From Archangium lipolyticum (GTDB lineage Bacteria > Myxococcota > Myxococcia > Myxococcales > Myxococcaceae): 64,000 bases of DNA. The translations under genes and the position numbers were made by a program. Below the pieces are notes generated by a model that was not told where the DNA came from, made no database searches, and saw only the letters and a list, made by a program, of their open reading frames with translations. Shown in pieces: positions 1 to 14,694 of the stretch (position 1 is the first letter of the stretch; every line of letters starts with the position of its first letter). The DNA lies in contig NZ_JANKBZ010000005.1 of NCBI RefSeq assembly GCF_024623785.1, forward strand, positions 186,001 through 250,000. The letters are read 5' to 3'.

Positions 1-138
1 CGGAGTCCCACCGGAGGGGGCCGCGGCCTGCGAGGGGGCGGGCGGGGGAGTGGTGGGCGCGGGCTGCGTCTTCTTCTCACAGGCGGCCACCAGCACGGTG
101 AGCGCGGCGAGCAACAACGGGACGGCGTGACGGCGCAT
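1..138 (-). CDS. Lipoprotein, N-terminal part only
   Basis: The first 46 codons of a leftward gene enter the window; the remainder lies beyond base 1. The ATG (138-136) has a good ribosome site, GGAGGAA, about six bases upstream. Residues 1-20 form a lipoprotein signal: positive MRRH, a hydrophobic run, then the lipobox LVAAC with Cys20 as the predicted lipidated residue. After it come a charged EKK and a Pro/Ala/Ser-rich linker, as is usual for outer-membrane-tethered lipoproteins. No domain is visible in what is present, so no function is given. Confidence 0.75.
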   Translation of the reverse strand, partial: MRRHAVPLLLAALTVLVAACEKKTQPAPTTPPPAPSQAAAPSGGTP

Positions 139-775
139 GCGGATTTCCTCCAGGGACGGCAAGGGGGGCGCCCGCCTTCTAGCGCACTCCGGAGGCTCTG
201 GCGCTCCGCGTCTCACGGCGTGGTGAAGGGTTTCTCACCTCACGTGAAAAGACCAGGGCGTCCGCATCCGGGTGCATCTGCCGCTCCTGCCTGCTTCATG
301 TGCCGTGACGGCAATCGCTGTCCGTGGTCACGGTTGGTTTTCACGTCTCGTGACGGCAATTGCTGTCAGCCGTCACGGCTGGTTTTCACGTCTCGTGACA
401 GCAATTGCTGTCTGCCGTCACGAGTGTTTTTCATGCGTCGTGACGGTCGACGGCAATGACTGTCACGGCTGGGAGGGTCGATTTTCGCTAAGTCTGCTCA
501 AAAATGGAGGATTCTCTTAAAGTGAAAAGATTGGTTTTGAGTTGCGCGTCCACCACTGATTGTGCGATTAGTGCGTGCCTGAGAGCGACGCGCTCTCTTC
601 GAGGGGGAAGTCCAAAGACAAGAGCATCGAGGTTGGATATCGGGATGCGTGCTGGCGCCTGACCGGGTGGCTCGCGCGGCTCCCGAGCGGTGTTCTCTTG
701 TCCGCCGGATGTATGTGCTGGGCCGGCCAATTCCCGCTCGACATCAAAAACGCAAGTCGTTGAGGGAGCACTATT
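139..775. other. Gene-free region between divergent lipoprotein genes
   Basis: About 640 bases separate the leftward lipoprotein start and the rightward Hint lipoprotein. Open frames here are short and proline/arginine-rich in the way of shadow frames, and none has a convincing start. The region is visibly less GC-rich than its neighbours between about 300 and 570. The distinctive content is the 45-bp tandem array described separately. Both flanking genes read away from it, so it must hold promoters for both, but I cannot point to convincing -35/-10 hexamers. Confidence 0.5.
305..484. repeat. Four 45-bp tandem units with internal palindromes
   Basis: Units start at 305, 350, 395 and 440, exactly 45 bases apart; the fourth is the most degenerate. 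Each starts GTGACRGCAATYGCTGTC (diverged in unit 4). The third copy contains GACAGCAATTGCTGTC, a perfect 16-base palindrome. Each unit then has a GCCGTCAC-like block complementary to its own GTGACGGC start, so a unit can fold as a hairpin, followed by GGTTTTCACGTCTC. One frame is open through the array, giving a 15-residue repeat, but no good start supports translation. The layout suits an operator or structural array between divergent genes. Confidence 0.85.
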
Positions 776-1714
776 ATGACGCGTAGTGGCTTTGTGGCTG
801 CTATTTGGTTGGGAGTCTCTCTATCCGCCGTGGGTTGTGGGGGGACGGAGGTCTCCAGCGAGACGGAGGCGCTCGCGAGCGCCGAGCAGGCGATGGATTG
901 CCGCGATTGCGGCGGCCCTGGGAATGAGCCCGAGGATCCCGTGGATCCGCCGCCCCCGCCCCCTCCTTGCCCGAGCGTCCTCCCGGAGCCGGCCGACCGG
1001 TGGTCCATCGAGTGCAAGTACAAGGGGGGCTCGCTGCCGCGTTGTGCCTATGCCATTCCGGCGGAGGTCTGCACTTCCTGGCAGAACAACGCCAGGTTTC
1101 ACAACCTGGTGACCGACGATGGGCTCGCGTACCTCCGCGAGGCCCACCTCTGCCCGTCCGTGATGGACTACGGGCGTTGGGCCAATGACTGGCACATCGC
1201 CTCCGTCTGCCCGGAGGGGTGCTTCGAGGCCAGCACGCGCATCATGAGCATCGGCTCCGAGGGCCAGCTGCTCTGGATGGCCGCCGAGGCGCTCTCCGTC
1301 GAGAGCGTGCTCGCCAGCCTCAGCTCGGAGGCGTCCCTGGATGCTCCCCTCTTCAACCCCCGGTCGATCGAGAACATGACCAAGGGGCCCGAGGAGCAGT
1401 CGCTCTACGTCTTCGTCCTCGACCAGGGACAGACGCTCAAAGTCACCCAGAACCACGGCATGCTCCTGGCCGACGGCCGCATGGTCAAGGCGAGCGACGT
1501 CACGAAGAAGGACTCCTTCGTGGGGGTCGACGGCTCCCATCTGAAGGTGAAGGACATCCTGCGCGAGACGACCAGCAAGGACGTCTACAACTTCCGCGTG
1601 GATTCCTCCGAGGTGAGTGAGCACATCATCGCCGCGGAAGGTGTCCTGGTGGGCGACCTCGCCTGGCAGGGCGAGCTCTCGCACGAGCTCGGTTCCATCA
1701 ACCTGCGCAAGTAA
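776..1714 (+). CDS. Hint-domain lipoprotein
   Basis: A 312-residue exported lipoprotein. Residues 1-21 carry a signal ending in the lipobox SAVGC (Cys21), followed by an acidic and poly-proline linker (about 51-66). The middle region (70-148) is Cys-containing and unrecognised. From Cys149 the sequence fits a Hint (hedgehog/intein) fold: CFEASTRI in the block A position, VTQNHGML (223-230) in the block B position, DVYNFRVD, and EHIIAAEGVLVGD near the end. The His-Asn that ends splicing inteins is absent, so autocleavage or no activity is likelier than protein splicing. Start: ATG with GAGGGAG about nine bases upstream. It heads a run of exported-protein genes on the same strand. The Hint call is pattern-based. 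Confidence 0.7.
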   Translation: MTRSGFVAAIWLGVSLSAVGCGGTEVSSETEALASAEQAMDCRDCGGPGNEPEDPVDPPPPPPPCPSVLPEPADRWSIECKYKGGSLPRCAYAIPAEVCTSWQNNARFHNLVTDDGLAYLREAHLCPSVMDYGRWANDWHIASVCPEGCFEASTRIMSIGSEGQLLWMAAEALSVESVLASLSSEASLDAPLFNPRSIENMTKGPEEQSLYVFVLDQGQTLKVTQNHGMLLADGRMVKASDVTKKDSFVGVDGSHLKVKDILRETTSKDVYNFRVDSSEVSEHIIAAEGVLVGDLAWQGELSHELGSINLRK

Positions 1715-1830
1715 TGTCTGTCGTCTAGCGGAGCAGTGGGGGAGGGCGCCGTCCTCGAGGGATGGCATCTCCCCCGCCTCCCGTTCCCTGACGCGCTCCG
1801 CGAGCCCTCGCGGCTTCCCTGGAGCGTGTC

Positions 1831-2691
1831 ATGAGGTCAATGATGAGGAATCCACGCACAGTCGCGGGCGCGGCGGTTCTCGCGCTCCTGGTCGCTGTCT
1901 CACTCGTGCTGCTCGGGCGTGAAGGCGCGCACGAGGAGGCCCCGGCGGTTGCCGGGCCGGCACCATCCGTTCCGGCTCCCAGGGCCGTATCCGCGGTTGC
2001 CACCGCGTCCCAGGACGCCTCACCGACCCTCCCGGCCACGGGTGCACCCCAGCAGGTGCTCCAGGACATGGAGGAGAACGTCCGCGTGATGGCCCAGGAG
2101 CGGCTCTCCTCCATGGAGCCCGCACGGCCCGCGGAGAACGTGGGACGGTTCAAGAGGGAAAACGTCGAGCAGGTGCGCGATGCCTTCCGCGAGATGCTCG
2201 CCTACCAGGGGCTCTTCAACAGCAGACGCGAGCGCAAGCGGCTCGCGGCGGAGGTGCTCGACAACCCGGAGGGGCGCGACATCGCCGCCCAGACCCTGTC
2301 GGACCCTGCCTTCGCCAAACAGGCCTTCGGAGAGTTCCAGGCGGAGGCCCGCTATTTCGCCGTCGAGGTCGTCCGCGAGGCGACGCGGCGCGGCGACGAT
2401 GCACTTGCCTTGTCCGTCGTGAGCGGTCTGACGTCGGAGCTCGCGGCCGCCCGGGGCGAGCTCGATCGCGGCCGCACCCAGGATCTCCAGGACCTTCTCA
2501 GGACATTCGCCGAGGTGAAGGGCCCGGGGGCCTTCCAATCCAGGCAGCAACTGGCGGAGCAGCTCGGCTACAGCCGGAATCTCCCCTTCGAGATTCGCAA
2601 AATCTATATCGACTCACTCGTTTCGGGCTTCTGGGTGACGACGGACATCGAGGAAGCCAAACGCGTGGCCATGCTGGCCGTCGGAGGATGA
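1831..2691 (+). CDS. Membrane-anchored helical protein, unknown function
   Basis: A 286-residue protein with one N-terminal membrane segment (about residues 11-29) followed by an Ala/Pro/Val-rich linker to about residue 75. The rest is predicted to be almost wholly alpha-helical and highly charged, with many Glu/Arg pairs. There is no lipobox and no family I recognise. The most probable topology is inner-membrane anchor with a periplasmic helical domain. Its stop (2689-2691) is one base from the ATG of the subtilase-like gene, so the two are almost certainly cotranscribed. Alternative ATG codons lie at residues 4 and 5 and would not change the topology. Confidence 0.65.
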   Translation: MRSMMRNPRTVAGAAVLALLVAVSLVLLGREGAHEEAPAVAGPAPSVPAPRAVSAVATASQDASPTLPATGAPQQVLQDMEENVRVMAQERLSSMEPARPAENVGRFKRENVEQVRDAFREMLAYQGLFNSRRERKRLAAEVLDNPEGRDIAAQTLSDPAFAKQAFGEFQAEARYFAVEVVREATRRGDDALALSVVSGLTSELAAARGELDRGRTQDLQDLLRTFAEVKGPGAFQSRQQLAEQLGYSRNLPFEIRKIYIDSLVSGFWVTTDIEEAKRVAMLAVGG

Positions 2692-2692
2692 C

Positions 2693-4084
2693 ATGTGGGA
2701 ATGCAAGACGCGTTTCATGAAGGGGACTGCCTGTGGGGTCCTTCTCTTGTCCGTCGTGGGTTGTGAGCTGGCTCCCCCAGGGGGGGTGGAGGACGGAGGA
2801 AGTATCCTTGCCCAGCCCGCCGCGCTGAGCGAGCAGGTCTCCGAGGCGAAGCAGGCCATCGAGCAGGACCGGTGCTTCCTGGAATCGGCGGATGACAGCG
2901 CCTGTGATTGGGCGTCCTACGTCTACTCCCCGGGGGACTTCGCCATGACGCGGGATACGGGTGAAGCCATCCTGGTCATCGACCAGTTCCCCTACCTCCA
3001 CACGGGTCTGCTCCGTTACCGCAACCGTCTGAAGGGCTTCTTCCGGGCCCGGCCAGGAGGGCACATCGAGCCCGCTTCGCACACCTGGAGGGTTCCCAGG
3101 GTGCTGGGCGAGGTCCTCACCCGGTTCGCCTCCCCGGACTTCATCCCCGCCGCGAGCCTGGGTGAGCTCGTGACCCCCATCCTCACGACCTATCGCGGTC
3201 ATGTCGACATGTTCGGCCACGGGCTGACGGTCTTCGCCGCGCTCGTCGATCGGGTTCCCCACCACGCCATCGTCCTGTTGGACGTGGACTCACTCTTCCT
3301 TTCGACCCTCGCGCCGGAGTCCTTCTGCGCGCCTGGCACGGACCCTGGAGCCCAGCAGCGGCTCGAGGCGGTGGCCCGGACCACGGCGGACGGGCTGCGC
3401 GGGGTGATGCACGAAAAGGGGGTCCGCTACATCAACGCGAGCTTTGGCTTCAGCATGAAGGTCATCCGTGAGGAGTGGCAACGTGTCTGTCGGAGCCCTC
3501 TCCCCGGTGACGACGTGTTGCGCGCGAAGCTGTTGGCCTACGCGCCCATCATGGACGCGCTGTTCAACACGGAGGGCGTCTTCGCGGTGCACGCCTCGGA
3601 CCAGGTTCAGGCTCCGGAAGACTCCCCCTTCGACCTCGCCTCCAGTGCCTATCCCAACCGGCTGCGCATCGGTGTCTTCGGCGCGCTCGAGTCCGGCGTC
3701 GACACGCGGGGGCGGGGGGCGACACGGCTTCCCGACTTCGCGTTCCCCAAGCCTGGTGACGCGGACCTGTACATCAATCACGGGTGCGACCTGTACTCGA
3801 ACTGCAACGCGACGCCGCTCAGGGTCGCGGGCCTGAGCGGGGTTGGTTCGGGCACCCTCCTGTATCTCAGCACCTCGTGGGCGGCTCCCGTGGCCCTGGC
3901 GCGCTTCATCTCGTTGCGTCAGGAGACCTCCTGCTCCGCTCCCCTGTCGAACCCGCTCATCCAGCAGCTCGCGCAAGAGCTCACTCCCTCCGAGTGCCCG
4001 GCGCTTCCGGAGGGAAAATGCATCTTCCAGGATCCCCTGAAACACAAGCAGTTCGAGGTCTACCGGCTCGGATACACGAATTGA
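2693..4084 (+). CDS. Subtilase-like (S8 fold) lipoprotein
   Basis: A 463-residue lipoprotein with lipobox SVVGC (Cys24); an internal ATG at residue 9 could be the real start. The order and spacing of motifs match subtilisin-family serine proteases: Asp97 in AILVIDQ, His176 in DMFGHGLTVFA, an oxyanion-type Asn248 in YINASFG, and Ser395 in LSTSWAAPVALARF, equivalent to the GTSMAAP block. The region between His and Ser is unusually long and Cys-containing. All triad residues are present, so it may be active although overall divergence is high. It lies one base after the helical protein and 24 bases before the next exported protein. A plausible role is processing of the co-encoded exported proteins, which is inference. 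Confidence 0.7.
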   Translation: MWECKTRFMKGTACGVLLLSVVGCELAPPGGVEDGGSILAQPAALSEQVSEAKQAIEQDRCFLESADDSACDWASYVYSPGDFAMTRDTGEAILVIDQFPYLHTGLLRYRNRLKGFFRARPGGHIEPASHTWRVPRVLGEVLTRFASPDFIPAASLGELVTPILTTYRGHVDMFGHGLTVFAALVDRVPHHAIVLLDVDSLFLSTLAPESFCAPGTDPGAQQRLEAVARTTADGLRGVMHEKGVRYINASFGFSMKVIREEWQRVCRSPLPGDDVLRAKLLAYAPIMDALFNTEGVFAVHASDQVQAPEDSPFDLASSAYPNRLRIGVFGALESGVDTRGRGATRLPDFAFPKPGDADLYINHGCDLYSNCNATPLRVAGLSGVGSGTLLYLSTSWAAPVALARFISLRQETSCSAPLSNPLIQQLAQELTPSECPALPEGKCIFQDPLKHKQFEVYRLGYTN

Positions 4085-4108
4085 CATCGCCAGGATGAAC
4101 AAGAACCC

Positions 4109-4753
4109 ATGAACAAATCCATCGCCCCCCTCGTTTCCCTGTTGTTCCTCTGCGCCTCGACGGCCATGGCGCAGCAGTCTCCCGTCGACGTCACGACCTA
4201 TGGAACGGGAGGAATCCGGTACACCGTCAACAGTTCCGGGTTCGAGACGCCCTTCCCCTATGGCCAGAAGACGGACGCGGCCTATACCCTGCCGTACGAT
4301 AGCGCCTACCGGCCCGGCTGCTTGGCGCTGTCGCCGCAGCTGCCCATCGGTCACGCCGCCGGGTACGCACAGTACATCCCCGTCATGACCGTGACCTGGA
4401 GTGGCCCGCTCAACGACCAGAACCAGTACCAGGTCAACCTGGGTCAGGTGATGGCGGTGGTCACCAAGGTCGACGGCACGCAGGAGACGTATTCCGCGCT
4501 CTTCGGGACTCAACACATGCCGAACCGCTTCCTGCTCTACGAGGATCCGATCCTGGGGCGCATCTTCTGGGGCCAGATCGAGAACTCGCTCACCGCCAAG
4601 ACCGTTCCGGTGATGCTCCAGTTCGAGGTCGAAGAGCAGGACTTCGTCCAGATCTCCGTCTGCAACCTCATGCCGAACACCGGCCTGACGCTTCGCAAGC
4701 TCGTTCTTCAGTCGTGGCCCTACGAGGGGGCCTGGTTCGGGAGCAATCCGTGA
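4109..4753 (+). CDS. Secreted protein, unknown
   Basis: A 214-residue protein with a clear Sec signal peptide (MNKSIAPLVSLLFLCASTAMA, cleavage after about residue 22, before QSPVD). The mature part looks beta-rich, with many Tyr, Thr, Gly and Pro residues and two cysteines (in RPGCLALSP and ISVCNLMP). I recognise no family. The next gene starts inside its stop codon (GTGA, 4750-4753), so the two are translationally coupled and their products may act together. The following protein shares short features with it, including an RPGC motif, so they could be distant relatives. Confidence 0.65.
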   Translation: MNKSIAPLVSLLFLCASTAMAQQSPVDVTTYGTGGIRYTVNSSGFETPFPYGQKTDAAYTLPYDSAYRPGCLALSPQLPIGHAAGYAQYIPVMTVTWSGPLNDQNQYQVNLGQVMAVVTKVDGTQETYSALFGTQHMPNRFLLYEDPILGRIFWGQIENSLTAKTVPVMLQFEVEEQDFVQISVCNLMPNTGLTLRKLVLQSWPYEGAWFGSNP

Positions 4754-5565
4754 AAAATCTCATCTCATCATTGGTGGTGGCCGGTGTGGCGTTCCTGGGC
4801 GCGGAGGCCTCCGCGCAGGAGAACCTGCTCGTCTGCCAGAACAGCGGGTTCAGTCTCTACCGCTGCTCGCTGACGAAGAAGCTGCTGGCCGCGCCCATCC
4901 TCGAGGACGGGACGATCTACGAGACGGACTACACCATCTCCTACAGCTTCCCGTGCAGTGGCCACGCCATCAACGTCGGCGTCGCGACGGACCAGGAGTA
5001 CGTGCCTTTCGTCATGGGCGCCACGAATGGACTGCTCACCGGGGTCGTCGGCAATGGGACGTTGCAGACCTACGACCCGGACCCGGTCACCACCCAGCGG
5101 TTGAGCTTCCGGCCCGGCTGCTCGCTGACCGTGTCCAGCGCCAAGGTGTTCCCCTCCACCAACACCCTGGTGTTGTGGACGTCGCAGGCACAGTCGCAGG
5201 CGAAGATCATCAATCTCTCCGCGCAGCTCTACCTGCTGGCCAAGGACTACCACGCGCTGTCGACCTGGGATGACGCGAAGCTGAACCTCTTGAAGGAGAG
5301 GCTCGAGGCGCTCGTCACCGCCTTCCCCGCGAACATCCATTATAAGACGATGCTCGCCACGGTGAACAACGCACTGCTCAACCAGCCTCCGCCGGTTTCG
5401 CAGCCGGAGCTCGACGAAGCGGGGACGGAAGTCATCGCCGCCATTCGCGCCGAGCTCGACGCGGAGGTCGAGGCCGGGACGAATCTCGTCAATCGCTTCA
5501 TTCGCTGGCAGGCGCAGGCGGAGCAGTCGCTCGTGGACGCACTCGATAACGTCCCGGCGGTGTAG
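4750..5565 (+). CDS. Secreted protein, unknown, coupled to upstream gene
   Basis: A 271-residue protein starting at GTG 4750, overlapping the previous stop by four bases; this start gives a clean signal peptide (VKNLISSLVVAGVAFLGAEASA, cleavage before QENLL), whereas the upstream ATG at 4714 adds a non-signal extension. The mature N-terminal part (about 25-150) looks beta-rich with several Cys and the motif FRPGCSL, also seen in the preceding protein. The C-terminal part (about 155-271) is predicted helical, with VIAAIRAELDAEVEAG-type heptads. No family is recognised. A strong inverted repeat follows 14 bases after the stop and probably ends the transcript. Confidence 0.65.
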   Translation: MKNLISSLVVAGVAFLGAEASAQENLLVCQNSGFSLYRCSLTKKLLAAPILEDGTIYETDYTISYSFPCSGHAINVGVATDQEYVPFVMGATNGLLTGVVGNGTLQTYDPDPVTTQRLSFRPGCSLTVSSAKVFPSTNTLVLWTSQAQSQAKIINLSAQLYLLAKDYHALSTWDDAKLNLLKERLEALVTAFPANIHYKTMLATVNNALLNQPPPVSQPELDEAGTEVIAAIRAELDAEVEAGTNLVNRFIRWQAQAEQSLVDALDNVPAV

Positions 5566-5579
5566 TACCCCGATTCCAC

Positions 5580-5644
5580 GCACACGAGGGCTCTTCCCGC
5601 GGACTCCGGTATGGCCGGAGGCACCCGTGAGGGCCCTCGTGTGC
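5580..5644. terminator. Long inverted repeat, probable terminator
   Basis: GCACACGAGGGC (5580-5591) is matched exactly by its complement GCCCTCGTGTGC (5633-5644), enclosing an inner hairpin CTCCGG-TATGG-CCGGAG. It lies just after the stop of the coupled secreted-protein pair. There is no run of T after the stem, so termination is inferred from strength and position. Confidence 0.55.
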
Positions 5645-5758
5645 CTTCGCAATACCCCGGCCGTCTAGTTCAACCAGGGCCTGGCCTTCCCGGCCGGCCC
5701 GGCATGGAAGTGATCCGGGCCGGGCGGTGGATCGCTCCATGCTCAGTGGGAGAGTACC

Positions 5759-6889
5759 ATGAGACGTTGGGTGGGTTGTTTGTTATTGGCAGGCGCTCTC
5801 ACGTCCCCAGGTGGGGCCGTCGCGAGCGACGACATGGCGGAGCGTGAGGCGAAGGCGGTGAGGGCATACACCGCGGCCAACGCCGCCTCGCAGCGTCACG
5901 GGCACTATCGGCAGGCCCGCGACCTCTTCCTGAGCGGGGAGCGCAGTATCAGCGCCCGGACCGAGGCGTGGGAGCAGTCCGCCCAGGAATGGGTGGTGGG
6001 CTGGTTCAAGGTGATGGCGCTCGCGGACCTGCAGAAGGACATCCCGTACGCGGAGTTCGAGGCGGAGCTCCAGGGGCTGTTGCGCGAGCAGAGCGACGGC
6101 CTCCTCCAGCTCACGAACGAGGCAAAGGCCGTGAAGGCCTCGGCGGACATGGCCCTGGACCTGCTCGGCCCGGCGAACACCGAGCCGGTTCCTCCGGAGC
6201 TCTCCGAGTACGCCACCGTGCTGCAGAGCCTCTCGCAGCGGGAGAACGAGCTGCGCCTGGCGCTCTCGCAGGTGGGGCAGATCGCCACCAGCAGGCTGCC
6301 GCGGCTGGAGACCATCGCCAATGACTCGCGTCTGGGGGTGCTCGCCCGCGTCCGGATCGCACTGCTGGAGCGGGCCCGCTACCCGCTGGAGCAGACCCTG
6401 GCCTCGGTGCAGGCGCTGCTGACCGCGGAGAAGGTCGTGGATCCGATCCTGGCGAAGCTCACCCAGGCGGAGAACGACATGAACCGCTACGCGCTGAACC
6501 TGCAGATCTTCCACGTGGAGGAGTCGCTCACCCAGGCGCGGGCGCTGTGCATGAGCAGCCAGGCCACGCTCGCCACGCTCACGTCGCCAGCCAGCTACGT
6601 GGCCGCGGCGAAGGCGCGGGCCACCCAGCTCTGCACGGCCATCGAGGGGCACGCCACCGGGCTGCTCTCCTATGGCATTCCCAAGGCCGACCTCGTGTAT
6701 GAGTTCATCAACGTCGAGAAGGCCTCGCTCGGAGCGATCTGCAAGATCGCCAACCCGCCAGTGGCCTGCGAGAAGCTCGCGCTCCTGGCGGCACTGAAGC
6801 TGACGGATCTTCAGGCCATGTCCGACGCGAAGCTCCGGTTCGTCGAGTACGGGTGGACCGAGCAGTTCGAGGCCGCGCAGCGGAACTGA
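5759..6889 (+). CDS. Exported helical protein, unknown
   Basis: A 376-residue protein with an N-terminal signal sequence (MRRWVGCLLLAGALTSPGGAVA, cleavage near residue 22; Cys7 lies too early to be a lipobox). The mature protein is almost entirely alpha-helical, Ala/Leu/Glu-rich, and looks like a helical bundle or coiled coil. No repeats or motifs were recognised. The ATG follows GGGAGAG at a good distance. It begins a second segment after the inverted repeat, with the next gene starting only 12 bases after its stop. Confidence 0.6.
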   Translation: MRRWVGCLLLAGALTSPGGAVASDDMAEREAKAVRAYTAANAASQRHGHYRQARDLFLSGERSISARTEAWEQSAQEWVVGWFKVMALADLQKDIPYAEFEAELQGLLREQSDGLLQLTNEAKAVKASADMALDLLGPANTEPVPPELSEYATVLQSLSQRENELRLALSQVGQIATSRLPRLETIANDSRLGVLARVRIALLERARYPLEQTLASVQALLTAEKVVDPILAKLTQAENDMNRYALNLQIFHVEESLTQARALCMSSQATLATLTSPASYVAAAKARATQLCTAIEGHATGLLSYGIPKADLVYEFINVEKASLGAICKIANPPVACEKLALLAALKLTDLQAMSDAKLRFVEYGWTEQFEAAQRN

Positions 6890-6901
6890 GAGAGGACGAC
6901 C

Positions 6902-8488
6902 ATGAATACACGAATGATTGCAGTGGCCGTGTCGTCGCTCCTGGCCGTGGCGATGGTGGGATACGCTGGCGAGGCCTCCGCGGTGACGTGCGAGGAGCTC
7001 CAGCTCAACAAGAAGCCGCCCATCGCCTTCAACCCCATCCCGATGAAGAATCCCCAGACGGGCGAGCCGTACCTGCCCAACGAGGAGATCGAGGTCCAGC
7101 CCGGGGTGAAGATGCTCGCGAGCGACTTCTTCAACCAGGTCAATGATCTCGAGTACGACCTCAACCAGTGGGGCTACTCGCTGCGCGACACGGACATCTC
7201 GACGCTGTCCGAGCTCAAGACCTGCATCGAGCTGCTCGCGGCGCAGCGCAACCTCATCTCCGAGGACATCCGCCAGAACGGCCCCGGCCCCTGGTCCGTC
7301 GAAGACCGGCTCAAGAAGGTCGAGGCCGCGTGGAAGCGGTACACGGATCAGATCCCCTCGTGGGACGAGCTCTACCAGAAGGCCGATGACGAGAGCGTGA
7401 GGGTGTACCTCCCCGAAGTGCCACCCTTCAGCGCCCCGGTGCCGGAGATCAAGCGCGCCGAGCTCAAGCCGATGTTCAAGGAGCGCGCCTGGTCCTTCGA
7501 GGTGGGTGAGAAGTCGAAGCTGTGGTTGAACGCGCAGGCGAGCCTGTCGCTGCGCGCCAGCAAGGTGGATGCGGTGGGCGACGCGCGTGGCGCCCTCAAC
7601 GCGGCGCTGCTGGGCTTGTGGGAGGGCGAGGTGCTCTCGGCGCAGGCCCATGCCCAGGCTCCCGCCACCGACACGGGCCAGCTCCTGGTCGAGGTGCGCG
7701 GTGTGGGCAAGGTGCTCTGGAGCAAGAACTGGCAGCAGCAGGGCATCCGCTATGACGACAAGGTGGAGTGGCCGGTGCACTACGAAGTGAGCTACCGCTT
7801 CCAGATCGGCCCCATTCCCGCGAAAGCCATGTTCGGCTTCCAAGCCACGGCAGGCTCGAACTATGGCTATGACGTCCTTCCCCTCCAGGTTGGAGCCCAC
7901 GCCGTGCCCTTCGCCTCGGCGCGGGCCTATGCGCAGGTGGGGATCGATCTCGGCCTTGCTAGCGCGGGAGTGGGCGGCACGCTCATCCTCGCCGAGGACT
8001 TCGTCACCCTGCAGGGCGCCGCGCGGGTGGAGTTCGACGAGGAGCCCACCCTCATCGTGGAGCTCTCTGGCACCAACAGCCTGAACGCGCTCAGCGGCAG
8101 TCTCTACGCCTACGCCCGGGTGAATTACTTCTTCGGCAAGTGGGAGGGGCGCTGGGACTTCTTCAGGTGGGAGGGGTTCAAGCGCGACGGAAACCTCTTC
8201 AACTACAAGTGGGTGTGGAGCCCGAGTGGCGTGAAGGCCACGGGAGACCTCAAGGCCGAGGACGTGATGGAGGTGAACCAGGCCAACGCGGAGCTGCGGC
8301 TGCTGGAGATCGAGAACACCTCGCAGAGCCATCTCTGGGCGACGATGAAGGCGATCTCCGAGGACGTGAACAGCCCCGCGGTGGCGAAGGTGCTCACCGA
8401 GCACTCGCGTGTGAGCTCCATCGCGAGCGGACTGGATGAGCTGCTGCTGCAGTACGAGAACCAACTGAGGGAGTGGACGAAGTCATGA
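6902..8488 (+). CDS. Secreted beta-rich protein, unknown, paired with LLT-like gene
   Basis: A 528-residue secreted protein with a signal peptide ending ASA (residue 27). Residues about 30-180 look helical; about 195-430 alternate strand and Gly-rich turns, with repeated aromatic and alanine patterns such as AYAQVGIDLGLASAG, ARVEF and LYAYARVNYFFG; the last hundred residues are helical again. The middle is reminiscent of an amphipathic beta-sheet that could bind lipid or an outer-membrane surface, but I cannot assign a family. Its stop overlaps the start of the next gene by ATGA (8485-8488), so it is coupled to the lipid-transfer-like protein. It begins 12 bases after the helical exported protein, with GAGAGGA as ribosome site. 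Confidence 0.62.
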   Translation: MNTRMIAVAVSSLLAVAMVGYAGEASAVTCEELQLNKKPPIAFNPIPMKNPQTGEPYLPNEEIEVQPGVKMLASDFFNQVNDLEYDLNQWGYSLRDTDISTLSELKTCIELLAAQRNLISEDIRQNGPGPWSVEDRLKKVEAAWKRYTDQIPSWDELYQKADDESVRVYLPEVPPFSAPVPEIKRAELKPMFKERAWSFEVGEKSKLWLNAQASLSLRASKVDAVGDARGALNAALLGLWEGEVLSAQAHAQAPATDTGQLLVEVRGVGKVLWSKNWQQQGIRYDDKVEWPVHYEVSYRFQIGPIPAKAMFGFQATAGSNYGYDVLPLQVGAHAVPFASARAYAQVGIDLGLASAGVGGTLILAEDFVTLQGAARVEFDEEPTLIVELSGTNSLNALSGSLYAYARVNYFFGKWEGRWDFFRWEGFKRDGNLFNYKWVWSPSGVKATGDLKAEDVMEVNQANAELRLLEIENTSQSHLWATMKAISEDVNSPAVAKVLTEHSRVSSIASGLDELLLQYENQLREWTKS

Positions 8489-10383
8489 AGAAGCTAGGCG
8501 TGGGGCTGCTCCTGGCGCTCGTCGGGGGCGGATCGCTGGCATGGTGGAAGTGGGGCCGTGGGGATGCGGCGGGCTTGTCGCTCACGTGTGTCCCGGGGCA
8601 GTCCCGCGCCTATGCCTTGTCTTATGAGTCTCGCGGGCAGATGTCCGACCCGGCCTTCGGCTTCTCCCTGGGTGCTTCGCCGGAGGGGCAGTCCGCCGAG
8701 ACGGTGGTGACGGGCCGCTGGCGGGAGACGTGTGTGCGCACGGATGCCACGAGTCACGTCCTCGAGGTGTCCGTCGAGGACGCCAAGGGCCACTTCCGCT
8801 CGGGTGGTGGGATCGGGGGCGGTGGCGCTCCGATGGGAGCGCGGGAGCTGGTGGAGGGCAAGAGCTTCGTGGTGATGGGCTCCGATGGGAGCGTGCGGTC
8901 CATCCACTTCGATCCCAGCTTCTCTCCCCTGGGAGAGAACATCCTGAGGGACATGCTGTCGATGCGCTCGGTGAGCCTGAAGGGCCCCCTGCGCGACGGC
9001 GGGAGCTGGACCTCGGAGGAGGAGGATGTCAACGGCCGGTACAACGCCTCCTATGCCCTCGCGTTGCCCGGGCCGGACCTCGCCCGGGTCACCAAGGTTC
9101 GTCAGGAGTACCTGGCCACCGGCTCCGGGCAGGATATGAAGACGGTAAAGCCCCTGGTTCGTGCCCTGCCCGGCAGTGAGAGCACGCTGGAGCTCGAGCT
9201 CGACACGTACCAGCTCCGGAGCCTGCGCTCCCGCGTGGAGGTCTCGCTCACGTTCGGCGGCCGGACCTTCGGTCAGACCACCGGCAGCCTGGCGCTGACT
9301 CCAGACACGGGCGCGGCCCCGCCGACGGTGGACCCCCAGGCGCTGCAGCGGGCCTTCTCGGCCCAGGTCTCCCGGGGAGTGCGGGCAGGTGATCTCGCGG
9401 CGCGCGACGCCGATGCCCGTATCGAGGAGCGCATCCAGCGGGAGGAACTCGGGGACGAGACCTGGCAGTCCCTGCTGGAGAAGGTGGGCGCGGCCTCGCC
9501 GGACCGGGCGAAGCTCTTCCTCAAGTTCAGGGCGCTCTTCCTGCTGCATCCGGAGACCTGCCAGGACGCCAGCAAGCTGCTCGCGCTCTCCAAGGGTCCC
9601 CACGAGCTGGATTTCCAGCTCGTGGCCGGAGCGCTCGTCTCCGCGGGGACTCCGGAAGCCCAGCAGGCGCTGGTGGCCGCCATCGAGGCCACCGGGGACC
9701 GGCTCCCCCATCAACGGACACTGACCCCGTTGCTCGGCATGGTCGCCAAACCCACCGAGGCCACGGAGTCGGCGCTCCATGCGCTCGTGCGCGACCATGC
9801 CCTGGGCGAGGTGCGTGACACGGCGCGCCTGGCGCTCGGGAACATGGCCCGTACGCTCCAGGAGCAGGAGCCGGGGCGCGCGGAGCGGCTCGTGCAGGAG
9901 GGCGTCGAGTTCGCGCGCTCCGCGCGGAACCTGGAGGAGCGGGTGGTGGCCATCCAGACGCTCGGCAATACGGGCTCGCCCCAGGGCTTCGAGTACCTCT
10001 CCCAATCCGTCAAGGACCCGAATGCCGCGGTCCGCCAGAAGGGCGTCTCGGCCCTGCGCTTCATCGAGACCGAGGCCGCGGAGCGCCTGCTGCTCGAGGT
10101 GGCATCGCGGGACGAGGCCGCCAGCGTGCGGGGCGAGGCGGTGGTCTCCCTCTCGTTCCGGCGGCTCTCGGCTGCCACGGTGGGGGAGCTCCTCCGGCGG
10201 GTCCGCCAGGATCCCTCCGAGAGCGTGCGGCAGTTGATCGTCAAGGTGTTGGCGGATGAGGCGCCCCGCTACCTGGAGATCCGGGAGACGCTGGAGCAGG
10301 TGAGCCGGGAGGATGCCTCGTCCTCCGTGCGCAAGGTGGCCACGCTCGTCCTGCTGCGGCTCGATTCGTCCGAAGGCTCGTGA
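8485..10383 (+). CDS. HEAT-repeat protein resembling the vitellogenin/MTP lipid-transfer module
   Basis: A 632-residue protein; I chose ATG 8485, which overlaps the previous stop (ATGA) and gives a clean N-terminal membrane anchor (MKKLGVGLLLALVGGG), over an ATG 12 bases upstream. Residues about 35-270 are beta-rich, with AYALSYESRGQ and, near 140-165, a strand plus NILRDMLSM that recalls the conserved N-terminal barrel of vitellogenin-like proteins. Residues about 285-632 are a helical solenoid of HEAT-type repeats. LVSAGTPEAQQAL followed by KPTEATESALHAL resembles the GT and PT motifs of the vitellogenin/MTP helical domain. If right, it would be an envelope lipid-binding or lipid-transfer protein. 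A plain HEAT-repeat protein is the conservative alternative. Confidence 0.65.
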   Translation: MKKLGVGLLLALVGGGSLAWWKWGRGDAAGLSLTCVPGQSRAYALSYESRGQMSDPAFGFSLGASPEGQSAETVVTGRWRETCVRTDATSHVLEVSVEDAKGHFRSGGGIGGGGAPMGARELVEGKSFVVMGSDGSVRSIHFDPSFSPLGENILRDMLSMRSVSLKGPLRDGGSWTSEEEDVNGRYNASYALALPGPDLARVTKVRQEYLATGSGQDMKTVKPLVRALPGSESTLELELDTYQLRSLRSRVEVSLTFGGRTFGQTTGSLALTPDTGAAPPTVDPQALQRAFSAQVSRGVRAGDLAARDADARIEERIQREELGDETWQSLLEKVGAASPDRAKLFLKFRALFLLHPETCQDASKLLALSKGPHELDFQLVAGALVSAGTPEAQQALVAAIEATGDRLPHQRTLTPLLGMVAKPTEATESALHALVRDHALGEVRDTARLALGNMARTLQEQEPGRAERLVQEGVEFARSARNLEERVVAIQTLGNTGSPQGFEYLSQSVKDPNAAVRQKGVSALRFIETEAAERLLLEVASRDEAASVRGEAVVSLSFRRLSAATVGELLRRVRQDPSESVRQLIVKVLADEAPRYLEIRETLEQVSREDASSSVRKVATLVLLRLDSSEGS

Positions 10384-10386
10384 AGC

Positions 10387-10427
10387 TCGCGGGCCATGGC
10401 GCCACGTCCCGGTGCCATGGCCTCGCG
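10387..10427 (+). terminator. GC hairpin after the exported-protein run
   Basis: GGCCATGGCGCC and GGTGCCATGGCC face each other across a seven-base loop with one mismatch, and outer CGCG bases extend the stem. It begins four bases after the stop. No T-tract follows, so it is a probable rather than certain terminator. Confidence 0.45.
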
Positions 10428-10562
10428 GCCCGCCTTCTCCCTGGTTTCTCCTCCACGTTCGATGACGCCCCTCTCCTGGCGGCAGGGGGGGTGAAAAGCG
10501 CTCGCACTCCAGGTCTTGGAGCGTCCAGGGCGCCGAGCGTGTGTTGGCACGATTTTTAATGC

Positions 10563-10577
10563 GGACCAACCTGGTCC
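10563..10577 (+). promoter_or_regulatory. Inverted repeat, likely Rrf2 operator of the suf operon
   Basis: GGACCA-ACC-TGGTCC is a perfect six-base inverted repeat about 70 bases before the start of the Rrf2-family regulator. It is flanked by TTTAAT on the left and TTTAAA on the right, so the symmetry extends outward imperfectly. Rrf2 regulators of Fe-S assembly bind A/T-flanked dyads and repress their own operon; assigning this dyad to the adjacent regulator is inference from position. No convincing -35/-10 pair could be fixed around it. Confidence 0.55.
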
Positions 10578-10644
10578 TGTTTAAAGAGCCAACACGCCCA
10601 GGTCCCCCGGAATCCGGTGGGCAGGATGGCTGGAGAGACCCCGA

Positions 10645-11153
10645 ATGCTCCGGATGAGCAAGATGACCGACTACGGCATCGTGCTGCTGACCGAGCTGGC
10701 GCGCGCTGGGAGCGAGACGCGCACGGCGAGGGAGTTGGCGGCCGGTACCGGTGTGCCCCTGCCCTCGGTGAGCAAGGTGCTCAAGGGGCTGCAGGGCGCT
10801 GGCCTGCTGGTGTCCCACCGGGGGGCGAGCGGCGGCTACGGCCTGGCCCGGCCCGCTGATGGCATTCCCCTCACGGAGATCATCACCGCGCTCGAGGGGC
10901 CCGTGTCCCTCACCGAGTGTGGCGCGCATGGCGCCCATCCGCCCGCGGGGACCTGCGAGCTGGAGACGGTGTGCCGGGTACGTGGCCACTGGCGCATCAT
11001 CAACCGCACCATCCAGGACGCGCTCGGGCGGTTGACCCTGGCGGACCTGTGCGCGCCGGTGCCGCGCCTCGTCGGCCTCGGGGTGCCCTCGCGCCCGGCG
11101 GCTCCGGCCCAGAACCCCAATTCCACCTCCGCTACCGCGGGAGGAGTTCCCTC

Positions 11154-11157
<4 letters not shown>
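10645..11157 (+). CDS. Rrf2-family regulator of Fe-S cluster assembly
   Basis: A 170-residue Rrf2/IscR-type transcription factor. [18 protein letters not shown] is the usual N-terminus of the SUF-associated group; the winged helix follows, with [21 protein letters not shown] as recognition region and the wing [14 protein letters not shown]. Residues about 90-115 hold the three-cysteine cluster ([16 protein letters not shown]) that ligates an Fe-S cluster in this family. After about residue 140 comes an Ala/Pro/Ser-rich tail. Its stop overlaps the sufB start (ATGA), so it is the first gene of the suf operon, and feedback repression is expected when clusters are plentiful. Confidence 0.9.
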
Positions 11158-13362
<2,205 letters not shown>

Positions 13363-13366
<4 letters not shown>

Positions 13367-14694
13367 CGGAAGCGGGGCTGCAGCACTACCTCGACCTGGC
13401 CGAGCGCTTCCAGGCGGAGAGGGCCGCGGGCGCTCCCGCGTGGCTGCGCACCTTGCGGCAGGAGGGCATCGCGCAGCTGGCGCGCCAGGGTTTCCCCACC
13501 TCGAGGAACGAGGATTGGAAGTACACGAACGTGGCGCCCATCACCGGCCATGCCTTCTGCCCCGTGCGCACCGTGCACGAGGCGGGGGTGGAGGCGGCGG
13601 TGGCGCGGCTCGCCCTGCCGGGCACGGGGCCACTGGCGGTGTTCGTGGATGGCTGGTTCGTCCGGGAGCTGTCCCGGCTGGAGGGCGCACCCGAGGGACT
13701 CTCGGTGCGCAGCCTGCGCGAGGCGCTCACGAAGGACGGAGAGGGGTTGGAGGCGGTGGTGGGCCAGCGGGCGCGCGCGGAGTCGAACGGCTTCACCGCG
13801 CTCAACGCGGCGCTGCTGGAGGAGGGCGCGGTGGTGCGGGTTGCTCCTGGGACGGTGTGCCCCGAGCCCGTGCAACTGCTGTTCCTTACGCGCGGTGACA
13901 ACACCGTGGCGCTGGCGAGCCCCCGGGTGGTGGTGGTGGCCGGGGAGAACAGCGAGCTCACGCTGGTGGAGAGCTACGTGGGCGCGGCGCCGGGTGTCTC
14001 CTTCACCAACGCGGTGACGGAGGTGGTGCTGGGCGCGGGGGCGCGGGTCACGCACCTCAAGCTTCAGGCCGAGTCGGAGACGGCCTTCCACATCGGCGCC
14101 CTGCACGTGTCGCAGGGCCGGGACAGCCGCTTCGCCTCGCACGTCATCTCGCTGGGTGGGGCGCTGGCCCGCAACGAGGTGCACGCCCATTTCGCGGCCG
14201 AGGGCGGCGAGTGCACCCTCAACGGGCTGTACGTGGGCCACGGCTCGCAGCACCTGGACAACTGGACGAACCTGGACCACGCGCACCCGCGCTGCACCAG
14301 CCGGGAGCTGTACAAGGGCGTGCTGGACGACAAGGCACGCGGCACCTTCCACGGCAAGGTGCTGGTGCGGCCGGACGCGCAGCGGACGGATGCGCGCCAG
14401 AGCAACCGCAACCTCCTGCTGTCGGAGGCGGCGATGGCGGACGCACGGCCGCAGTTGGAGATTCTGGCGGATGACGTGAAGTGCGCGCACGGCGCGACGG
14501 TGGGCCGCCTGGACGAGCAGGCGCTCTTCTACCTGCGCTCGCGCGGCATTCCCCGGGCGGACGCGGAGTGGCTGCTGACGCATGCCTTCGCGACCGAGGT
14601 GGTGGGCGCGGTGCCGCTGGCGCCGCTGAGGGAGCAGGTGGAGCTATTGCTGGCGCGCAAGCTGCCAGGGTCGTCGAAGGAGGGACGGGCATGA
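13363..14694 (+). CDS. sufD: Fe-S cluster assembly protein SufD
   Basis: A 443-residue SufD, paralogue of SufB and partner in the SufBC2D scaffold. The start is GTG 13363, overlapping the sufC stop; this puts the N-terminus at VTEAGLQHYLDLAERF. NEDWKYTNVAPI is the conserved N-terminal SufD motif, and the C-terminal beta-helix carries NWTNLDHAHPRCTSRELYKG, DARQSNRNLLLS, ADDVKCAHGATVGRLDEQALFYLRSRGI. These are the usual core-complex motifs, including the His used in cluster assembly. The downstream sufS ATG overlaps its stop. Confidence 0.96.

Follow-up and report, generated by a model that had tools for sequence, protein, structure and literature searches.

Large lipid transfer proteins (the large subunit of MTP, vitellogenin/lipovitellin and apoB) have been treated as animal proteins in the literature searched. 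In bacteria, a group of Hint-like proteins that includes MXAN_6253 and STIAU_1829 has been known since 2008, and the passages devoted to it describe a signal peptide, a poorly conserved N-terminal region containing two conserved cysteines, a C-terminal Hint-like domain and myxobacterial members (Burglin 2008, PMC2362128). Here we analyze eight same-strand open reading frames (P0001-P0008, positions 776-10383) in a window of 64,000 nucleotides of Archangium lipolyticum DNA, whose host genome measures 12.6 Mb, in which a Hint module adjoins a bacterial vitellogenin/MTP-type lipid-transfer module. Thus, the bacterial Hint group and the lipid-transfer module as a domain are both already known; the literature searched, which leaves most subscription journals outside, gave no account of a bacterial vitellogenin-type protein, of a Hint partner or of a Hint/lipid-transfer neighbourhood. 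We tentatively favour a reading in which these two exported modules serve one envelope process that combines Hint processing with two-chain lipid transfer for surface proteins. The genes on which this reading bears most directly are as follows.

8485..10383, + strand: P0008, membrane-anchored vitellogenin/MTP-type lipid-transfer module with a beta domain and a HEAT arch (Pfam and fold matches)
6902..8488, + strand: P0007, beta-rich partner with a beta region at about residues 196-448 (neighbourhood and a low-confidence model)
776..1714, + strand: P0001, probable lipoprotein with a Cys-rich N-domain and a C-terminal Hint domain (lipobox assigned by eye, PT-HINT, family profile)
1220..1654, + strand: Hint domain within P0001, beginning at Cys149 and running to the conserved tail GVLVG, including Thr224 and His227 (conserved residues)
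1831..2691, + strand: P0002, helical partner of the Hint protein, probably anchored in the inner membrane (one N-terminal membrane segment assigned by eye, family position)
2693..4084, + strand: P0003, divergent subtilase-like lipoprotein (conserved motif residues, no profile match)

P0008 is a vitellogenin/MTP-type lipid-transfer module by both family and fold. Its Pfam score for Vitellogenin_N was 64.7 bits, where the cut-off is 24, with the best stretch in its helical part, and a profile of its family retrieved lipovitellin (3.1e-10) and MTP (3.2e-6) from PDB sequences, ranked below many generic HEAT-repeat designs. The predicted structure (pLDDT 80.4, pTM 0.52) shows a beta domain that contains a central helix and, after this domain, a helical arch; rows 1-8 of the Foldseek search were all MTP, lipovitellin, apoB or bee vitellogenin (best E value 6.9e-16). 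In VIA, lipovitellin matched with a Z of 18.8 over 534 residues (P0008 38..622), and the matched part of MTP was 24..614. Two observations weigh against this assignment: generic repeat proteins matched the arch about as well as lipovitellin in VIA, with the animal proteins set apart by covering the beta domain too, and the root-mean-square deviation over both domains was 17-21 A, too large to establish how the two domains of P0008 sit relative to each other. Pfam found no C-terminal domain family, VWD included, in P0008, whose chain ends after the arch and contains no C-terminal lipid-cavity sheets. Thus, P0008 shares the Vitellogenin_N module, with its beta domain and arch, with the large lipid transfer proteins, but it is bacterial and membrane-anchored, and the cavity sheets are either absent or, as we propose, contributed by P0007. 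Vitellogenin_N exceeded its cut-off in 53/195 genomes of the phylum and in 0/14 control genomes, and no relatives of P0008 were found on plasmids. A bacterial family with a beta domain, an arch and a coupled second gene would bear on the origin of large lipid transfer proteins and would provide a small lipid-transfer machine open to testing.

The earlier note on this DNA, made from its letters alone, had proposed that a probable lipid-transfer protein and a beta-rich partner are coupled; this was borne out by the Vitellogenin_N match and by a 4-base overlap between P0007 and P0008, with P0008 starting at ATG 8485 rather than at 8473. In the P0007 model, long antiparallel strands of 20-28 residues run from about residue 283 to 440. 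Of the 50 Foldseek matches listed, two MTP chains alone reached a probability of 1.00 (E values 4.7e-4 and 7.2e-4), with lipovitellin at row 40 (0.63) and barrels at 0.35 or less. VIA placed residues 283..446 of P0007 on MTP 722..882, beyond the part matched by P0008, although the match to another MTP entry (8eoj) begins already at residue 497. Hydrophobicity alternates along residues 196-448 of P0007 (z 5.2) and not along the rest of the protein; in eight other members of its family, z ranged from 0.8 to 4.2.

These data suggest, at the level of the model, that P0007 and P0008 may be a large lipid-transfer protein split over two genes. Weighing against this, the model of P0007 is of low quality (pLDDT 46.7), VIA scores OmpT, NalP and other barrels equal to or above MTP and lipovitellin (6.5 and 6.2 vs 5.8-6.1), and no sequence profile link between P0007 and lipid-transfer proteins was found; the split is for these reasons put forward as a suggestion only. 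The barrel scores, the strand lengths and the missing profile link would also fit P0007 being an outer-membrane barrel or another beta protein rather than the missing half, with P0008 as its periplasmic delivery partner or scaffold. We consider this unlikely given that Foldseek assigned its highest probability to MTP chains only and that the part of MTP matched is the one absent from P0008, with the reservation that applies to 8eoj. No fusion of the lipid-transfer and beta genes into one open reading frame occurred in the seven loci with called genes.

Relatives were searched in 96 genomes of the family, including this one (95 others), and matches to P0008 and P0007 were found in 60/96 and 41/96 of them, respectively. 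The linkage counts took in 98 lipid-transfer matches down to an E value of 1.1e-8 and 115 Hint matches, with weaker matches left out (for Hint, the weaker intein-like ones), together with all 62 beta matches and 26 of the 30 P0003 matches. Of the beta genes, 56/62 have a P0008-type gene at most 5 kb away, and 57/98 lipid-transfer genes have a beta neighbour as judged by P0007 alone. When 41 lipid-transfer genes in 38 loci were re-examined with profiles (a set that differs slightly from the 41 without a beta neighbour, since a few neighbours and one locus were added and two loci omitted), a beta neighbour was recognized for 14. Among the remaining 27 genes, 21 lie directly downstream of a DnaA-like gene, with DnaA confirmed by Pfam for two, and six lie at contig ends or beside other genes. 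Nine further loci came from other families of the phylum (eight) or from the same family (one, G093). In five of the nine, the lipid-transfer gene adjoins the gene of a beta-type protein of larger size (674-1438 residues), and in one of these loci the two overlap by four bases; the other four comprised one without a beta neighbour, one with beta-type genes and no called lipid-transfer gene, and two (L148, L150) without called genes.

As a separate observation, in many Myxococcaceae (also in L082 and L086) the gene immediately after dnaA, at the replication origin, is a vitellogenin-module paralog that has no beta neighbour.

The link between the lipid-transfer pair and the Hint module supports our reading that they share a process. 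Hint genes were found within 15 kb of 34/57 lipid-transfer/beta pairs, compared to 0.46 expected by chance if 10 Mb genomes and random placement are assumed, and within the same distance of 0/41 lipid-transfer genes without a P0007-detected neighbour. The order of the genes differs between lineages: a Hint cluster followed by lipid-transfer and beta genes; beta, lipid-transfer, Hint, partner and subtilase; lipid-transfer, beta, Hint, partner and subtilase; and divergent beta and lipid-transfer genes. The Hint/lipid-transfer link has thus survived rearrangement. The earlier note had envisaged a single envelope system and named conservation of gene order across myxobacteria as a check; the linkage of the Hint and lipid-transfer parts stands, but the full eight-gene set was found in only 1/95 other genomes of the family (G031), which is also the only genome where the combination in the window, with its P0003-type triad, recurs. 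Likewise, a single fixed operon was rejected as unsupported, since P0004-P0006 occur in 2/96 genomes.

Several counts weigh against a shared task. The genomes are relatives with shared ancestry, so the counts are not independent events; 23/57 pairs lack a Hint gene in the surrounding 15 kb; Hint modules without a nearby lipid-transfer gene exist; and, of the P0003-type genes, 10/26 are more than 6 kb from any Hint gene and only 2/26 have a lipid-transfer gene within 20 kb. The unlinked pairs and Hint modules, as well as a conserved break of 193-211 bases between the modules, would be expected if two independent envelope modules without a common biochemical task had come to lie side by side because of common regulation or a hot spot in the genome. 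We regard this explanation as possible but somewhat less likely than a shared process, because the excess of linked pairs over chance recurs with varied gene orders, Hint subfamilies and proteases.

The earlier note had also listed a Hint, self-cleaving-type domain in the run, and the domain held up in P0001: although its best Pfam match, PT-HINT, scored 22.3 bits, below the cut-off of 27.7, the profile of the P0001 family matched inteins and a bacterial intein-like (BIL) domain. Cys149, Thr224, His227, Asn272 and Gly293 are invariant in 26/26 aligned family members, as are Cys90 and Cys145 upstream of the Hint domain. Among 83 non-identical family proteins, the TxxH of Hint block B is present in 79, CxxxC in 77 and the tail GxLxG[DST] in 75, and the exceptions include Hint-less and degenerate copies. 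A C-terminal His-Asn, the mark of inteins and type A BIL domains, was found with one pattern in 0/83, the position reading G-D or G-S. Since the family has kept Cys1 and TxxH and lacks the C-terminal His-Asn, the Hint classes set out in the relevant passages of PMC4031507 predict thioester formation and N-terminal cleavage without splicing. Judged from these residues, the Hint domain of P0001 should cleave in the fashion of Hedgehog rather than splice, and its arrangement (an exported N-domain, a C-terminal Hint with Cys1 and TxxH, no C-terminal His-Asn) appears to be that of Hedgehog/Hog proteins and type B BIL domains. P0001 also answers to the description of the Burglin 2008 group in being exported and having Cys90 and Cys145 before the Hint domain, a likeness taken from that description; the passages on that group in PMC2362128 make no mention of a membrane partner, a protease slot or lipid-transfer neighbours.

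Copies of the N-domain that lack the Hint domain occur in several loci. In this genome, a second P0001-like gene (L088, 7750-8205, minus strand), with 109/169 residues identical to P0001, retains both lipoprotein signal and N-domain, and a stop codon occupies precisely the Cys149 position; this copy could be a recent pseudogene. Another Hint-less copy (L130) shares its end point, and those of L198, L128, L202 and L201 end at most 2 residues from the Cys1 position, giving six loci in total with N-domain-only copies that stop at or at most 2 residues from Cys1. In further P0001-like copies, short or Cys-rich tails replace the Hint domain. The recurrence of this pattern across loci argues that the N-domain is an independent unit, and the paralogs would lend indirect support to cleavage at Cys1. 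According to the passages in PMC2362128, N-domain-only genes are known among the Hedgehog-related genes of nematodes, a trait that the P0001 family shares. A redox gate, with Cys145, four residues before Cys149, acting as a disulfide lock of the kind that the passages in PMC4031507 report for some inteins, was considered and rejected, since the Hint-less paralogs keep the upstream cysteine without Cys1; Cys145 is more likely part of the N-domain.

The PT-HINT match, together with SitA toxins being myxobacterial lipoproteins in the passages on them in PMC5562445, raises the alternative that P0001 is a polymorphic or SitA-like toxin with a pretoxin Hint domain. We disfavour this as very improbable: PT-HINT stays below its cut-off, the roughly 20-30 residues after the last Hint motif are conserved across the family rather than variable and leave a short tail with no toxin domain, Pfam gave no toxin family (defence and immunity libraries lay outside the search), and the Hint-less paralogs retain the N-domain.

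In two loci (L120, L121), large exported-looking proteins of 702-708 residues are repeated between the Hint genes; two of them showed no Pfam family above cut-off.

The most constant companions of Hint genes are the membrane-anchored partner families P0002, c5 and c11. In the fetched loci, 36/36 partner genes have a Hint gene no more than three genes away and 26/36 directly follow it, three with a four-base overlap, counts that are biased because the loci were picked for Hint, lipid-transfer or P0003 genes. The kinship of the three families is weak, with hhalign probabilities of 22-68 among them and 3.5e-6 for P0002 against the merged profile, and c5 had no convincing relative in the PDB (best E value 0.046, over anchor and linker). 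A Bdellovibrio plasmid (L192, 6934-10388) encodes a 911-residue Hint lipoprotein followed, with a four-base overlap, by a 240-residue anchored protein, whose profile score as a partner is marginal. Another family of the phylum, with small genomes of 1.3-1.8 Mb, also keeps the P0001-type Hint family (L195-L200); of these six loci, picked for Hint alone, three have a partner match, one a P0003-like gene and two neither. Lipase-specific foldases (Lif) are anchored helical proteins with a Pro/Ala-rich linker, encoded just 3' of an exported protein. The P0002-type partner appears to resemble them in anchor, helices, linker and gene position; the PDB profile search gave no sequence match.

The slot after Hint and partner varies: it holds P0003-type genes, ordinary S8 subtilases, M1/M4 metalloproteases, a beta-propeller or other secreted proteins. 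P0003-type genes occur in 21/96 genomes, with a Hint gene at 6 kb or less for 16/26, and their family keeps Asp97, His176, Asn248 and Ser395 in 20/20 members. The earlier note had listed a subtilase-like, serine-protease fold in the run. In P0003, the Asp, His, Ser triad does stand in subtilase-like motifs (Asp97, His176, Ser395), but the alignment, inspected by eye, has no conserved Asn at the expected oxyanion-hole position, Pfam and PDB searches returned no subtilase match up to an E value of 10, and hhalign found no match to the two S8 families of the examined loci. A standard subtilase was accordingly rejected for P0003.

We propose the following sequence of events. P0001 would be exported as a lipoprotein, and its Hint domain would form a thioester at Cys149 and be shed; the mature product would be the Cys-rich N-domain, released by hydrolysis or coupled to a nucleophile, for instance an amine or a lipid. 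Anchored in the inner membrane, P0002 would handle the periplasmic P0001 precursor; P0003, subtilase-like, would trim this precursor or be co-delivered with it. The anchored P0008, with its beta domain and arch, and P0007, with the putative lipid-cavity sheets, would make up a two-chain protein that binds lipid and moves it across the periplasm, with P0006 as a candidate accessory. Both modules would jointly lipidate, load or export Hint-processed surface proteins. Envelope lipid transfer serving such proteins is the likely role, and maturation of a secreted lipoprotein particle, as in the earlier note, is a possible one. In a more specific version, which we consider improbable, a small exported signal or effector domain would receive a lipid, or some other nucleophile, at its C-terminus through the Hint domain, and the split vitellogenin/MTP homolog would load it with lipid and carry it via the periplasm or a particle. 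In insects, one of several models has Hint-processed, lipid-modified Hedgehog travelling on lipophorin, a particle made by a large lipid transfer protein (passages in PMC5875562 and PMC1783640); its parallel to this locus is an analogy only. A recurring neighbourhood of Hint, membrane partner and lipid-transfer pair would offer a handle on what exported bacterial Hint domains do.

The layout of the run agrees with most of what the earlier note had seen in it, namely eight exported products, one direction and at least three tight junctions. Signal peptides, lipoboxes and membrane segments were assigned by eye: P0001 (AVGC) and P0003 (VVGC) have lipoboxes, P0004, P0005, P0006 and P0007 type I signal peptides, and P0002 and P0008 a single N-terminal anchor, so that all eight products carry an export feature. 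P0002 and P0003 are spaced by 1 base, and P0004 and P0005 overlap by 4 bases (GTGA), like P0007 and P0008, with P0005 starting at GTG 4750 and not at 4714. The gaps between P0006 and P0007 (12 bases) and between P0003 and P0004 (24 bases) are short, and those between P0001 and P0002 (116 bases) and between P0005 and P0006 (193 bases) are wide. Both wide gaps contain strong hairpins by folding z (-3.34 and -3.84, respectively; the stretch after P0008, -1.48). In the ortholog locus L087, the gaps are 30 and 211 bases. Since only the P0005/P0006 break is kept wide there, two transcription units, P0001-P0005 and P0006-P0008, are likelier than a single one, and the run is two adjoining modules (776-5565 and 5759-10383) and not one fixed operon. 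A consensus scan for promoters and terminators gave no surplus (1 vs 0.6 and 7 vs 4.4), and no RNA family exceeded the threshold in window positions 1-12000. The remaining features of the locus are given below.

4109..4753, + strand: P0004, secreted, lineage-specific (2/96 genomes; no Pfam family above cut-off)
4750..5565, + strand: P0005, secreted, coupled to P0004, lineage-specific (2/96 genomes; 4-base overlap)
5759..6889, + strand: P0006, secreted, probably helical, lineage-specific (2/96 genomes; no family found)
5580..5644, + strand: long hairpin between two probable transcription units (stretch 5566-5700, z -3.84; 0/200 shuffles equally stable)
304..467, no strand assigned: about 3-4 palindrome-bearing, operator-like 45-base repeats upstream of P0001 (period 45, 3.2 copies, 85% match)

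P0004 and P0005 had been described in the earlier note as a coupled secreted pair sharing an RPGC motif. The coupling is real in the 4-base overlap, but kinship through RPGC was rejected: the match is weak (4 of 6, E value 0.19) and the motifs read RNGC and KPGC in the ortholog locus, so they give no evidence that the two proteins are related.

The 45-base repeats sit about 310-470 bases 5' of P0001 and were not found in the corresponding stretch of L087. The 12.6 Mb genome contains their core motif, at up to 1 mismatch, only 3 times, each time within this array, and the array may therefore be an operator dedicated to this locus. Beyond the run, the next genes (window 10645-14000) are presumably ordinary ones, an apparent Rrf2-type regulator followed by what resembles a suf operon for iron-sulfur assembly.

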